Assembly: GCA_038503035.1 (NCBI GenBank)
Contig: JAVSML010000046.1
Location: forward strand, 627,662 to 691,661
Direction of reading: 5' to 3'
DNA length: 64,000 nucleotides
From: Crocodylus rhombifer
Taxonomy: Eukaryota > Chordata > Crocodylia > Crocodylidae
The notes under the pieces: model-generated
Seen by the model: the letters and a program-made list of their open reading frames with translations, nothing else
Databases searched by the model: none
What the model was told of the DNA's origin: nothing
Shown: positions 56,588-64,000 of the stretch, one piece after another
Numbering within the stretch: position 1 is the first letter of the stretch
Layout of the letters: every line of letters begins with the position of its first letter
Made by a program: the position numbers and the translations under genes

Positions 56588-59515
56588 TCATAGGATCCCA
56601 GCAAGATAAGCATCCAATTTACTCTTGAAGGTGTTCAATGTAGGCGCTTGAACCACCTCCGATGGCAGACTGTTCCAGACCTTGGGGGCTCGGACAGTAA
56701 AGAAATTCTTCCTTATGTCCAGCCTGAAACGGTCTTGCAGGAGTTTGTGACCGTTCGACCTCGTCATCCCATGGGGCGCTCTGGTGAACAGATGTTCCCC
56801 CAGATCCTGGTGGTCACCCCTGATAAACTTATAGGTGGCCATCAGATCACCCCTGAGCCTGCGCTTTTCCAGGCTAAAGAGTCCCATGGCTCTCAGCCTA
56901 TCATCGTAAGATCTGTTTTCCTGACCTCTGATCATGCACGTGGCTCTCCTCTGGACTCTCTCAAGCTTCTCCACATCCTTTTTGAATTGTGGAGCCCAAA
57001 ACTGGACGCAGGACTCCAGCTGCGGCCTCACCAAGGCCGAGTACAAGGGGAGAATGACGTCCCGGGATTTGCTCGAGAAGCATCTATGGATGCACGCCAG
57101 CATTTTGGTCGCTTTACTAGCCGCAGCATCGCATTGGAGGCTCATGTTCATCTTGTGGTCAATGATGACCCCCAAGTCTTTTTCTTCTGTAGTGCTAACC
57201 AACGTAGCACTGCCGAGCCTATAAGGGTGCTGCAGGTTTTTCCTCCCAAGGTGAAGAACCTTGCATTTTTCAGTGTTAAACACCATGAGGTTCTCATCTG
57301 CCCACTTGCTGAGCTTGTCCAGGTCAGCCTGGATCACCCGCCTATCTTCTGGCGTGGATGCTTTGCCCCAAAGTTTGGTGTCATCGGCGAACTTGGCCAG
57401 TCCACTCCTGACTCCAATGTCCACATCGTTAATGAAGATGTTGAACAGTATGGGTCCCAGGACAGAGCCTTGAGGGACCCCACTGGTCACAGGGCACCAC
57501 GATGAGTGACTGCCATCAATCACAACCCTCTGGGTCCGACCACGAAGCCAATTTCCCAGCCAGCGGATCGTGGTGGAGCCAAAGCCACAACTGGGCAGTT
57601 TGGCCAAGAGGTGATCATGGGATACCAGATCAAAAGCTTTTTTGAAGTCAAGATATATGACATCAATCTCTTCTCCCTGGTCCAGGTGATAGGTCACCTG
57701 GTCATAGAAGGAAATGAGATTGGTCAAACAAGACCTACCCGCAACAAACCCATGCTGGCTGTCCCTTAGAATGTTAGCCTGGGCCAGTCCCTCAAGGATG
57801 GCCTCCTTAATAAACTTTTCTAAGATCTTCCCCAGGATAGAAGTCAGGCTAATGGGCCTGTAGTTAGCCGGATCCACTCTCCTCCCTTTCTTGAAGATCG
57901 GCACCACATTGGCCTTCTTCCAGTCTTCGGGCACTACACCAGAGCGCCAGGAGTTTTCAAAGATCCGTGCCAGGGGCTGGGCTATGACGCTCGCCAGCTC
58001 CTTGAGTACCCTGGGGTGCAGGTTGTCAGGGCCAGCTGACTTGAAGGTATCCAGCTTCTCAAGGTGTTCCTTCACGAGGTCAGCATTGATGAAGGGTAGG
58101 GGATCCCCCTCACCCAGATTTCCCTGTCCCATAGCAGGCATGGGCATCCTGTGTGACTGATGAAAGACTGACGCAAAGTACCTATTTAATAGGTTGGCTT
58201 TTTCCTGGGCGTCAGTTGTCAGCTGCCCCATCTGGTTTAGCAGGGGTCCAACATTGCCCTTGCTTTTCCTCCGGCTCCCCACATATCTGAAAAAGGACTT
58301 TTTGTTGTCCTTGATGCCTGAAGCTAGTTGGAGTTCAGTTGCAGCCTTGGCTTTCCTGGTTTGGTCCCTGCAGGACCGGACCAGCATGGAGTAATCCTCC
58401 TTGGAGGTGAATCCTGTCCTCCATCCTTTGTAGGCTTTCCTTTTTAGCCACAGTAGGTCCGCTAGGTCTCTGGAGAGCCAGGGGGGCTGCTGTGCCTTCT
58501 TGCTGCCTTTCCTCCGTGTTGGAATAGATTTAGCTTGTGCACTGAGGATCACTTCCTTGAGAAGCAACCACTCTTCTTGAACTCCCAACTCCCTGGGGTC
58601 ATGGTCCCTGAGGGCCTGACTGACTAGCCTCTTGAGCTTGTCAAAGTCGGCTTTTCTGAAGTCAAGGACTTCTGTGTTGCTGACTGACTTGCCAGCTTTA
58701 CGGTGGATGGTGAAGGTGATCAGCTCGTGGTCGCTGTCACCCAACTTCCCATCAATCACTAGGTCGCCGATTAGGTCATCCCCCGTAGCCAGTACCAGGT
58801 CAAGCAGTGCTTTGCCTCTCATTGGCCCATAGACTTCTTGAGTCAGGTAGAGGTCATCCACGCACGAGAGAAAGCTTTGCGCCCGCTCAGATTTAGCTGA
58901 GTGATCTTCCCACGAGATGTCCGGGTAATTGAAGTCACCCATGACAACCAAGGTCCTGGAGCAAGCAGCCTCAGTCAGTTCCTGGGTGAACTCCTGGTCA
59001 AGCTCGGGACTTTGAGTGGGAGGTCTGTAGTAGACTTCCACCGTTGTGTCCCCTGTGCCGAATTCCCCACGAATTTTTACCCAGCGGGTCTCTAGCTGTC
59101 CATGCCAGTCGCCAACATCAGCTTGCAGGGACATGTAGCTTTCCTTGACATAGAGAGCTACACCCCCGCCCCTTTTGTCAACACGATCCCTCCTGTACAG
59201 GGTATAGCCCTCTATACCCGTGGTCCAGTCATGGGTGGAGTCCCACCAGGTCTCCGTTATCCCAATGACATCATATTTCTTTGCACTGAGCAGGAGGAAG
59301 AGCTCGTCCTGCTTGTTGCCCAGGCTCCTGGCATTAGTGTACAGGCAGGCAAGTGTGCCCCTGGGGGCTCTTGCCTTGCCCACAGATTGTGCCAGGGCTG
59401 GGGCAGGGGTGGGCTCCCTTAAGTGCCCCTTTAAGTGCCTTGGTCCACTGGCTTTGCAAGGGCCATTCAGCGGGCCAGCAGGGGCAGTAGTCCCCCCATC
59501 CCCCAGCGGGCTTAG
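56588..59515 (-). CDS. CR1 ORF2: AP-endonuclease and reverse transcriptase, intact
   Basis: The frame is open for 975 codons from the end of ORF1 (59515) to the TAA at 56590-56588. Numbering from the GTG at 59383, the AP-like endonuclease has TNARSLGNKQDEL (16-28), GITETWWD (41-48), RGGGVALYVKE (71-81), MGDFNYPD (148-155) and GDSDHELI (215-222). The reverse transcriptase has [12 protein letters not shown] (489-500), DSQHGFVAGRSCLTN (541-555), [16 protein letters not shown] (575-590), [15 protein letters not shown] (634-648) and active site FADDTKLWG (665-673). A C-terminal region (LERVQRRATCMIRG, RRLRGDLMATYKF) follows to LDAYLAGIL. All catalytic residues are present. There is no in-frame ATG between ORF1 and the endonuclease, so initiation is not conventional (see finding on -1 frameshifting). 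The product would nick target DNA and reverse-transcribe the CR1 RNA. Confidence 0.93.
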   Translation of the reverse strand, partial: LSPLGDGGTTAPAGPLNGPCKASGPRHLKGHLREPTPAPALAQSVGKARAPRGTLACLYTNARSLGNKQDELFLLLSAKKYDVIGITETWWDSTHDWTTGIEGYTLYRRDRVDKRGGGVALYVKESYMSLQADVGDWHGQLETRWVKIRGEFGTGDTTVEVYYRPPTQSPELDQEFTQELTEAACSRTLVVMGDFNYPDISWEDHSAKSERAQSFLSCVDDLYLTQEVYGPMRGKALLDLVLATGDDLIGDLVIDGKLGDSDHELITFTIHRKAGKSVSNTEVLDFRKADFDKLKRLVSQALRDHDPRELGVQEEWLLLKEVILSAQAKSIPTRRKGSKKAQQPPWLSRDLADLLWLKRKAYKGWRTGFTSKEDYSMLVRSCRDQTRKAKAATELQLASGIKDNKKSFFRYVGSRRKSKGNVGPLLNQMGQLTTDAQEKANLLNRYFASVFHQSHRMPMPAMGQGNLGEGDPLPFINADLVKEHLEKLDTFKSAGPDNLHPRVLKELASVIAQPLARIFENSWRSGVVPEDWKKANVVPIFKKGRRVDPANYRPISLTSILGKILEKFIKEAILEGLAQANILRDSQHGFVAGRSCLTNLISFYDQVTYHLDQGEEIDVIYLDFKKAFDLVSHDHLLAKLPSCGFGSTTIRWLGNWLRGRTQRVVIDGSHSSWCPVTSGVPQGSVLGPILFNIFINDVDIGVRSGLAKFADDTKLWGKASTPEDRRVIQADLDKLSKWADENLMVFNTEKCKVLHLGRKNLQHPYRLGSATLVSTTEEKDLGVIIDHKMNMSLQCDAAASKATKMLACIHRCFSSKSRDVILPLYSALVRPQLESCVQFWAPQFKKDVEKLERVQRRATCMIRGQENRSYDDRLRAMGLFSLEKRRLRGDLMATYKFIRGDHQDLGEHLFTRAPHGMTRSNGHKLLQDRFRLDIRKNFFTVRAPKVWNSLPSEVVQAPTLNTFKSKLDAYLAGIL

Positions 59516-60609
59516 TTTAAAGCCCAGTGGAGCAGGTCAGCCAGCCTGGCTGAGAAGAGCCTCCTCCCCAGGGGAGAGAGGTGGAGGCCATCTCTTCCCA
59601 GCAGCTCGCTGCCTCTCTCTCCAAAGAGCGGGCTGTGGTCATGGAAGCCAAAGCCTTCCTGATAACACCGGCGCCGCAGTCTTTGGTTCACCATGTGGAT
59701 CCTCCTCTCCCTCCTCAGCCCATAGCCTGAGACTGGGAGGATCGACGAAAACACCACCTGAGCTCCCAGACCCCTAAGCCCCGCTCCCAACTCCCTGTAG
59801 CGCCTCATGACCTGGCTGGGGGTGCTCCGAGCCGTGTCATTGGTGCCCACATGAGTGAGGAGCATGGGGTAGTGGTCTGTGGGCCAGAGGAGCTGCGGGA
59901 TCCTCTCCGCAATGTCTCGGATGCGGGCCCCTGGGAAGCAGCATACTTCCCGGGCTAAGGGGTCGGGGCGGCAGATTGCCCCCTCAGTGCCCCGCAGGAT
60001 GGAGTCTCCCACAACAAACACCTTACGCTTTGTCTTGGGGAGAGCAGGGCCAGTAGCTGTGGTCGAGCCTGGGTTGCCTGCGGGGGCTGGCAACTGCGTG
60101 GGCTCTGCTGGGGCTGCAAGAGGTGCGAACCTGTTGCTAAGCTCCGGCGGGGCAGGGGCCTTGGTGCGGCGGGCCTTGAGGCCCTTGACCACCTTGGTCC
60201 ATGCCCCTGACTGGGCAGAGCGGGAGGTCCCAGAGTCCTCCTTAGTCGCGGAGGGAGACGGAGCTCTCCCCTGCGGCTCCCGGGGGAGAAGGGCCTAGCA
60301 GTAGGAGTCTATCTCCTGCTCACAGTCCCTGATGGCACGCATTCTCTGGACTGTAGCCTGGAGCTCCTCCAGCTGGCGTGCCAGAGACCCCAGTAGGAAG
60401 CAGACCCCACAAGGGGAGGTGGCCATGCTCCCGGGCCCCAGAGCCTGAAAAAGGGACAGGGAGCCCCCGCAGCCAAGAGCCAGGGGCTCTGTCTGCGTGG
60501 AGCCCGGAACCATGGGCTCCGTCTGGGCGGCCGTCTCTGAGGTGCCTGATGGGGGGGCCGCAGAGCCCGAGGGGACCCTCGGGGTGCGGCGCGTGCCCAT
60601 CCGTGTCAT
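59512..60609 (-). pseudogene. CR1 ORF1 with SGNH/GDSL-type esterase domain, one in-frame stop
   Basis: Reading from ATG at 60609: a Ser/Pro/Thr-rich start, CGVCFLLGSLARQLEELQAT-like coiled-coil segment, then TAG at 60297-60295 (plus-strand CTA). The same frame continues without another stop to TAA at 59514-59512. The part after the stop contains the esterase: VFVVGDSILRGTEG (GDS block), LLTHVGTNDTARS (HxGxND-type block) and DGLHLSPLGRRLF (catalytic Asp-X-X-His). Such ORF1p bind RNA and form the CR1 ribonucleoprotein. The stop is a single point change, so ORF1 is dead in this copy unless read through, while the esterase portion is intact. The last codons, TTA AAC before TAA, include the slippery heptamer. 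Confidence 0.85.
59515..59521 (-). other. Candidate -1 ribosomal frameshift site (slippery heptamer)
   Basis: On the minus strand ORF1 ends GC T TTA AAC TAA. T_TTA_AAC is a canonical X_XXY_YYZ heptamer in the ORF1 frame. A -1 shift leads to CTA AGC CCG, the frame of ORF2, which stays open into the endonuclease domain. The heptamer lies in a potential small hairpin (GGGCTT / AAGCCC around TAAACT). It is followed about 10 nt later by two G runs and a C run able to form a short stem. Confidence 0.45.
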
Positions 60610-61860: not shown

Positions 61861-63482
61861 ACAGAATCATAGAGAGGAAGGGCTAGAAGAGACCTCCAGA
61901 AGTCATCCAGTCCAACCCTCTTCTTGAGGCAGGGTCATCCCTATTCAAACCATCCTATATAATCTATAATCTGAATTCTATATACACAGTACTCCAGATG
62001 GCCTAATTAATGCTGAGTAGAAGCACAATCTCCTCCTATGTCTTGCACCTAATGCTTCCATTGATGCATCCCAAAACCGCATTTGCCTTTTGTGCAGCTG
62101 CATCACACGATAGATTCATTTTGACTCTGCGATTTACCAAGACTCCCTCCCATGTCCTTTTCCATGGTGCTGTCATCCAGCCAAGTGTCACCCACTTTGC
62201 ATTTGTGTTTTTGATTATTTCTCGTGAGGTGTAGCACCTTGCATTTGTCTGTATTGAATGTCACCCTGTTAGTTCTAGCCCAGCTTTCCAATCTGTTGAG
62301 ATCCTTCTGAATTGCACTCCCAAACTTCAACATGTTTGCTGGATGTCACCCTAGTTTTTCTGCAAACTTGCTCAGGAAGCTTTCCATGTCAGCATCCAAA
62401 TTGTTAATTAACACAGTGAACAGCACCAGGCGAAGGACAGGCCCCTGTAGGACTCCACTTGAAACCTCCTGCCATTCTAATGTAGAGCTGTTAATAATTA
62501 CCCTTTCCCTGTGGCTACTGAGCCAGTTATCTATCCACTGTACAGTAGTTTTATCTAGCCCACATTTCTCCAATCTGTTTATGAGAAGGTAATGCAGGAC
62601 CTTGTCAAAAGCCTTGCTGAAGTCAGAAACACTAGGTACACAGCATTCCCTTCATCTACCCAAGTAGTTCCTTTGTCAAAGAAGGAGATCAGGTCTATTT
62701 GACATGATTCATTTTTCATAAAACTAAGCTGGGTGCTTGAGATCAGCCTTTCCTCCTCCAGATGCTTTTAAATGGCCTTTCTTAGAATTTCCTCCAGTAA
62801 CTTTCCAGCTATTGAAGTGAAGCTAACTGGTCTGTGGTTCCCTAAACCCTCTCCCTCCCCCCACCCTCTTCCCCCCTCTTTTTTTTTAAAAAAGAGGCAC
62901 AATGTTAGTTCTTTTCCAGTCCTCTGGTACCTGACCCATCTCCAACAACTTCATGAAGATCATTGCCAAGGGCTCTAGATCTCTACCAGTTCTTTCAGTA
63001 CCCTGGGATAAAGATCATCATGCCCTACTGACTGACTTGAATTCAGAGAGACCCAACAAAAGCTCTCTGATCATCTCTTTTGTTATCTCCTCCTTCAGCT
63101 CACCCTCCTCCTTACCCACATCATTCTTATTAGGTGTCTGGCAGCAGCTTAATTTTTTTGGGAAGACTGAGGCAAAGTACCCATTGAGTAGCTCCGTTTT
63201 CTTTGCATCTTCTGTTAGGCACCCCCCCCCTCTCCCACCCTGGTTTGTTAACAGTAAACTCACAGCTTCCTTTGTCCTTTTTTCTCTGACCAATATACTT
63301 ATGGAACTGCTTTTTGTTGTCCTTAACCTCCTTTGCCAGGTGGAACTCGTTCTTTATTATTAGCAAAACTGTCTCAGGAAAACCTTCCCTCGCATTCATT
63401 ATTTGAGCTACCAGTCCTTCCACTAAGGAATTTTGCTTGGAAACTGCTGATAAGTACCTACAGTTCCCTAAAAACAAATTTT
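61861..63482 (-). mobile_element. Old CR1 fragment, 5'-truncated
   Basis: Minus-strand CR1 remnant. 63477-63018 reads pre-RT linker (AKEVKDNKKQFHKYIGQRKK, LLNGYFASVFPKK). 62573-62346 has KCGLDKTTVQWIDNWLSSHR, SSGVLQGPVLRLVLFTVLIN. 62333-62103 has RLESWARTNRVTFNTDKCKV. The 3' end is AATCATAGAGAGGAAGGGCT at about 61866. The core RT region 62580-63010 is represented only by scattered phrases in broken frames. More diverged than the copy at 56505 and of another lineage. Confidence 0.85.
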
Positions 63483-64000
63483 TAAAAGACTTTGAAATAT
63501 TCTGGTATAATCAATCAAGCTACAAAAAATAAAAATAAAAACCAAATTCTTCTAAACCTGCTCTTATTTATTTCTGTCCCATCCTGTTTTTTCCTATGCA
63601 AATCCCATGTTATAGTTCTTCCACCAATAATGCCTGAAGCACAAACAATATTGAGTGCTTTGCAAAGAATGAACCTGTTGGTGGTAGAAAGCTAGCATCT
63701 TGTTCTTTCCTGGGTAGCATTCCTTAATGCTTTTATAATTTGAATGGGGGACTAAGAGCTTGCTGCTGCATGTCTCATTTAAGTAAGATTTATACACAAG
63801 AGGAGCCAGACTGGCTTTGGCTAAAGTAAGGAGCAGACCCTTAACTGATCAAACTGAAAGATTATCTTTGCTGAGATCCCAGAGACTGAAATGTCAAGCA
63901 GTTTAGTGACATATGCATTGGGAGTAAAATTAAGTGTGACAGATTGGCCAGTGAACATACACACCCTCCAGAGCAATGTCACGCTTGATTTGACAGCTGA
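63483..64000. other. Nothing recognised
   Basis: Right edge of the window; AT-rich, no supported feature. Confidence 0.35.

Follow-up and report, generated by a model that had tools for sequence, protein, structure and literature searches.

Ribosomal frameshifting by -1 at the heptamer U_UUA_AAC is well established, and this heptamer ranks among the most shift-prone on mammalian ribosomes (PMC5009743; for this and the other papers cited below, statements refer to excerpts of their texts). In reporters, G-quadruplexes placed after UUUAAAC raise -1 frameshifting, with spacers of 6 to 8 nucleotides (nt) working best among the 3- to 10-nt spacers tried (Yu et al., PMC3919603). The same heptamer closes the first open reading frame (ORF1) of a CR1 element, a long interspersed nuclear element (LINE), in a 64,000-nt stretch of the Crocodylus rhombifer genome (assembly GCA_038503035.1, contig JAVSML010000046.1, forward-strand positions 627,662 to 691,661), which we call the window. 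The crocodilian CR1 elements include a single group, E, that was active after the living crocodilians diversified (PMC4316615, PMC3905857). Comparison of CR1 families within the C. rhombifer genome indicates that the ORF1-ORF2 junction is probably a -1 programmed frameshift site, at which ORF2 would be made as an ORF1-ORF2 fusion.

Frameshifting at the heptamer is known; its proposed use in CR1, together with a G-run shared downstream, appears to be new. No description of frameshifting in CR1 was found in the open-licence literature, which was covered mostly by titles and the beginnings of abstracts and which leaves the original CR1 sequence papers outside its scope.

The heptamer at the end of ORF1

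On the minus strand of the window, the 3' end of ORF1 reads ...CTC CAC TGG GCT TTA AAC TAA. The heptamer (59515..59521) is thereby phased with the ORF1 codons GCU UUA AAC in the X_XXY_YYZ register, and the UAA stop lies directly 3' of it (59512..59514), exactly as the first-pass annotation of this DNA had read it; that annotation was also in accord with the literature in ranking the site as a highly efficient one. The string TTTAAACTAR is unremarkable in itself, with one match in the window and at least one match in 34 of 100 shuffles, but finding it in exact phase with the ORF1 stop, and again in other CR1 families, is more than chance would give. In five families of the genome (I to V), ORF1 ends in GCU-UUA-AAC-UAR, the stop being mostly UAG in families II to V.

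In family I, which includes the window copy, the exact in-phase heptamer is present in 28 of 28 loci read (8 plus 20, with 40 listed), and TAA follows in each. A query with the alligator ORF2 start returned 30 loci, mostly of family II, and 29 were sorted to that family. The junction is present in 24 of these 29, and all 24 have the exact heptamer, followed by TAG in 23 and by CAG in one (L026). One of the 24 (L018) turned out to be III-like, and family III is known from this locus and L027; one of the five loci without a junction match (L030) turned out to belong to family V.

A query with the turtle ORF2 start recovered the old, decayed family IV, for which 70 of 150 listed loci were read. 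Fourteen of the 70 were set aside for want of the junction or of the bases immediately 5' of it, including one (L049) with an exact heptamer at its broken end. The heptamer is exact in 27 of the remaining 56, the majority sequence is TTTAAAC followed by TAG (TAG in 42 and TAA in 3 of the 56), and per-base agreement is 0.92 within the heptamer versus 0.87 on either flank; a few family IV loci appear to lie on duplicate contigs (L054/L055). Family V has its whole junction in one locus, L130. Ten more loci fetched for this family comprised one of family V, seven that best match family II, and two without a junction; L131, among these seven, has an interruption immediately 5' of the heptamer. Across families I to IV, the heptamer is the majority sequence at the subfamily level, which is the conservation that the first-pass annotation had proposed to look for.

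The family V copy in L030 is broken just upstream of the heptamer (L030:1302), where it is fused to inverted CR1-like sequence, and carries an indel downstream of the junction.

Scans of viral and genome contig collections for CR1 DNA of other species returned a single element, with a different junction. This CR1-like element (L069:272-4399) lies on a contig catalogued as part of a Poribacteria metagenome-assembled genome, perhaps sponge DNA, and its ORF1 and ORF2 share one frame, with a single stop between them and no ATG at the ORF2 start.

The -1 linker and possible starts of ORF2

In families I to IV, the -1 frame runs without interruption past the junction and into the conserved ORF2 product, the linker being free of stops for 55, 75, 57, and 47 codons, respectively, after TTT AAA CTA (one locus each for I, II, and III and the majority sequence for IV). 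Given composition, the probabilities of finding no stop are 0.26, 0.067, 0.12, and 0.078, the product of which is 1.7e-4 if the families are independent. Over the same linkers, frame 0 contains one to three stops and frame +1 contains zero to four. Family I alone proves little, because its +1 frame is open too.

The linker of the window copy (FKLSPLGDGG..., 59348..59521, minus strand) has neither a stop nor a Met and reaches CLYTNARS after 58 codons; the first-pass annotation was thus correct that the -1 frame leads openly into ORF2 and that the stretch has no in-frame ATG, but its length of 44 codons was too short. The first ORF2-frame ATG (59134-59132) falls within the endonuclease, and all seven ATGs between the heptamer and that codon are in the ORF1 frame. 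The two nearby ATGs that had been singled out do soon meet stops, and they lie in the ORF1 frame at 59499 and 59466 rather than at about 59502 and 59474. The same arrangement holds in one locus each of families I and II, where all AUGs from the heptamer to the first ORF2-frame AUG are in the ORF1 frame and the latter sits beyond the YTNARS motif. A consensus with an in-frame ORF2 ATG had been named as evidence against frameshifting: the linkers of families I, II, and IV contain no Met, but that of family III contains one, 31 codons from the heptamer.

Counted by eye, an ORF2 frame of 1,011 amino acids (aa) occurs in 41 of 150 copies listed by the alligator query, mostly of family II, and one of the 41 has an internal TAG. 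Elements without an AUG before the endonuclease therefore seem to have multiplied recently, in which case some non-canonical route to ORF2 must exist. The conserved heptamer is the feature common to the families.

The main rival to frameshifting is that ORF2 is translated separately, either through termination-reinitiation or by starting at a non-AUG linker codon, with UUUAAACUAR acting as a termination/reinitiation signal. SART1 is described as using reinitiation, and L1 has been proposed to do so (PMC5972666). The annotated CR1 ORF2 proteins of turtle and lizard begin at a Met in the linker, and the near-cognate codons GTG and AGG occur in the -1 linkers of all four families, some of them in fair context. 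Nevertheless, we consider separate translation unlikely. Families I, II, and IV have no ORF2-frame AUG before the endonuclease, including any SART1-type AUG that overlaps or lies near the upstream stop, and the nearest AUGs belong to the ORF1 frame. The near-cognate codons occupy no shared place, with either the heptamer or the endonuclease motif as the point of reference, and reinitiation would presumably not need the exact phasing of U_UUA_AAC. Nor is the turtle Met fixed. The family IV linker GDGDQSPEVSGEVG resembles the turtle protein P0026 (GEGDQSPEVSGKVGYREEAQAG) upstream of the annotated Met, and a second turtle protein, P0208, retains VGYREEA but has Ala in place of the Met, suggesting that the region before the annotated Met is translated.

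Codon conservation at the ORF1 terminus

The Ala-Leu-Asn (ALN) tail might also be kept because the ORF1 protein needs it, making the heptamer a by-product. The tail does recur among homologues of ORF1, 78 of 129 of which end in ALN, including those of alligator, turtles, birds, a tegu, and poison frogs. One each ends in TLN, CLN, SLN, and SLS, and the 47 that end otherwise appear by eye to be mainly truncated, partial, or mis-modelled. The 129 comprise P0097-P0133 and P0174-P0265, the distant matches P0134-P0173 having been excluded before counting; the share is biased, since the second search used a profile built from 15 rows already ending in ALN and supplied the best 120 of 149 matches, and many rows are near relatives of each other. 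Because those 15 rows were chosen for their ALN ending, the fact that the three residues do not vary among them carries no weight as evidence here.

The nucleotides speak against a requirement of the protein. UUA and GCU are identical in the five families, despite the availability of six Leu and four Ala codons, whereas other Leu codons of ORF1 drift. When the ORF1 ends of the family majorities (~380 bases) are compared, residue identity is 76/127 (60%) between families I and II, 71/127 between I and III, 102/129 between II and III, and 34 to 36 of 112 to 119 in pairs with family IV. At identical residues, with the last three and all Met and Trp excluded, codons agree in 29/70 cases for I-II, 25/65 for I-III, and 64/93 for II-III, and in 17/32, 13/30, and 11/32 for I-IV, II-IV, and III-IV. 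Agreement among Leu codons alone is 1/11, 2/11, and 6/13 for the first three pairs and 2/6, 0/3, and 1/6 for the pairs with family IV, whose counts are weak because decayed copies add stops and shifts that make the majority unreliable away from the junction.

When pooled without the II-III pair, codon agreement is ~0.16 for Leu, ~0.22 for Ala, and ~0.8 for Asn, from which the chance that one pair retains all three terminal codons is about 3%. The terminal GCT TTA AAC is the same in families I to IV and in family V. The variant tails point in the same direction, in that Thr, Ser, and Cys in place of Ala before Leu-Asn all allow NNU: TLN, CLN, and SLN still permit NNU-UUA-AAC, although SLS does not. 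The heptamer thus appears to be kept beyond the requirement of the protein in four families of one genome, plus family V, and we regard a by-product origin as improbable.

A splice between ORF1 and ORF2 that takes its acceptor from the AG of UAG is the least credible explanation of all: a turtle model (P0208, from Natator depressus) does join esterase and endonuclease here, presumably through a predicted splice, but a protein model is not a transcript, the upstream sequence GGCGGGCUUUAAAC is weak as a pyrimidine tract, the family I sequence is UAAG rather than UAGG, and a spliced RNA would not be a full template.

Candidate stimulators downstream

For frameshifting at the heptamer, the candidate helper is a G-run. 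A run of at least four G begins 11 nt (families I to IV) or 12 nt (family V) after the heptamer in all five families, with a chance of 0.016 to 0.040 per family by composition alone. In every family the run opens with a Gly codon, always GGG, and the spacer before it varies. In the window copy, the spacer between the stop and the G-run occupies 59505..59511, the run itself 59500..59504, and a second G-run 59492..59497, all on the minus strand. The first-pass annotation had named a G-run and a C-run downstream as possible helpers, and the G-run does recur in each family; that it would actively help frameshifting is our reading of its position. G-quadruplex-aware folding of 15 loci gave a clear energy gain in families II and III, a slight one in a single family I locus of the two folded, and a gain in one of the eight from family IV. 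A quadruplex in all families is accordingly no more than a possibility, strong scores being confined to families II and III.

The hairpin GGGCTT/AAGCCC that the first-pass annotation placed around the site is not a general feature. Its AAGCCC arm lies beside the site in family I only and is missing from families II, III, and V in the stretch printed; family IV carries AAAGCCC at a greater distance downstream, where pairing with GGGCTTT would be possible across a larger loop. Other stem arms, such as CCGCTGG/CCAGCGG in family I, were rejected as not above shuffles. That no convincing pseudoknot was visible by eye agrees with the downstream stem search, which in families I to IV gave nothing beyond shuffles.

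The CR1 copy in the window

The element lies on the minus strand and has the organization of the CR1 clade, with an esterase (SGNH) ORF1 followed by an ORF2 containing an APE-type endonuclease and a reverse transcriptase (RT), as identified by Pfam matches. ORF1 spans 59512..60609, counted from the earliest in-frame ATG that follows the preceding stop, and includes an SGNH/GDSL esterase domain at 59560..60012 (PF13472; E = 1.4e-10). ORF2, in the -1 frame, is open from stop to stop over 982 aa (56588..59536), with the endonuclease domain at 58727..59320 (PF03372, with PF14529 matching too) and the RT domain at 57221..57892 (PF00078; E = 5e-33). Its closest relatives, according to protein matches rather than a tree, are the ORF2s of alligator, lizard, and turtle LINEs.

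ORF1 of the window copy has a private nonsense codon at 60297-60295, which is missing from all four sister loci that reach this position (seven examined). Despite its open ORF2, the copy is thus probably dead, and it is informative as a member of its family rather than as a live element.

A second, decayed LINE relic, recognized by eye from translated frames, lies beside the CR1 copy on the minus strand (62103-63510).

Discussion

The phase and recurrence of the heptamer, the open -1 frame, and, for families I, II, and IV, an ORF2 frame with no AUG ahead of the endonuclease together lead to the frameshift reading; the fixed terminal codons likewise support the ORF1-ORF2 fusion that the first-pass annotation had proposed. 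Under this mechanism, ribosomes at the end of ORF1 would decode UUA in the P site and AAC in the A site and slip back one base onto UUU AAA. The abutting UAR stop would thereby be bypassed and the linker read on into ORF2, yielding an esterase-endonuclease-RT fusion at some low rate beside a majority of plain ORF1 protein, in a ratio resembling that of Gag to Gag-Pol. We infer the slippage, its efficiency, the fusion as the active form, and the help of the G-run from nucleotide and protein sequences.

Several observations weigh against this reading. The families share ancestry and some family IV loci resemble duplicates, so that neither the counts nor the tests are independent, and nucleotides were compared within a single genome, other species being represented by proteins. 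The CR1 elements of turtle, lizard, and family III carry an in-frame linker Met at which initiation is possible, and GTG and AGG are available in all four linkers, albeit at no shared position. Folding of the 90 nt downstream of the heptamer gave z scores of -0.7 to +1.4, nothing above shuffles, and for stems starting 2 to 12 nt past the heptamer, fractions of 0.17, 0.82, 0.48, and 0.84 of shuffles were as good in families I to IV, respectively. Neither approach, then, revealed a stimulatory RNA structure 5 to 9 nt downstream. The stop abuts the heptamer and a 10-nt gap precedes the G-run, as opposed to the usual structure 5 to 8 nt downstream. A strong stimulator is not required at every -1 frameshift site.

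A broader and more speculative proposal, which we hold only tentatively, is that this frameshift site of tetrapod CR1 has been kept since before the frog-amniote split and is driven by the abutting stop and the G-tract, not by a pseudoknot. The G-tract 11 to 12 nt downstream would then act as a quadruplex or be bound by the ORF1 protein or by a host G-tract binder.

If frameshifting does operate here, it would fix, in a Gag-Pol-like manner, how much polymerase a vertebrate LINE makes relative to its ORF1 protein. This would set CR1 apart from the reinitiation proposed for L1 and would bear on how LINEs are translated.

Among described systems, the coronavirus-type U_UUA_AAC signals (PMC5009743) have the same heptamer in the same phase, with a replicase/polymerase downstream in the -1 frame. 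CR1 differs from them in having its stop directly against the heptamer, no supported stem or pseudoknot, a G-run 11 to 12 nt downstream, and a LINE as the host element. G-quadruplex-stimulated frameshifting (PMC3919603) resembles CR1 in the succession of UUUAAAC and G tracts, but the quadruplexes there were inserted into reporters, whereas strong quadruplex scores here are limited to CR1 families II and III. CR1-clade LINEs with an esterase ORF1 (PMC4316615, PMC3905857) have the same ORF1 followed by an ORF2 with endonuclease and RT; the excerpts of those papers treat ORF1 and ORF2 simply as two frames and describe no frameshifting. Unusual translation is shared with other non-LTR (long terminal repeat) elements, through recoding in HeT-A and reinitiation in SART1 and L1 (PMC5009743, PMC5972666). 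SART1 relies on overlapping stop and start codons (PMC5972666), whereas CR1 families I, II, and IV are without an AUG at that position. HeT-A frameshifts as CR1 would (PMC5009743) but lacks an RT of its own.

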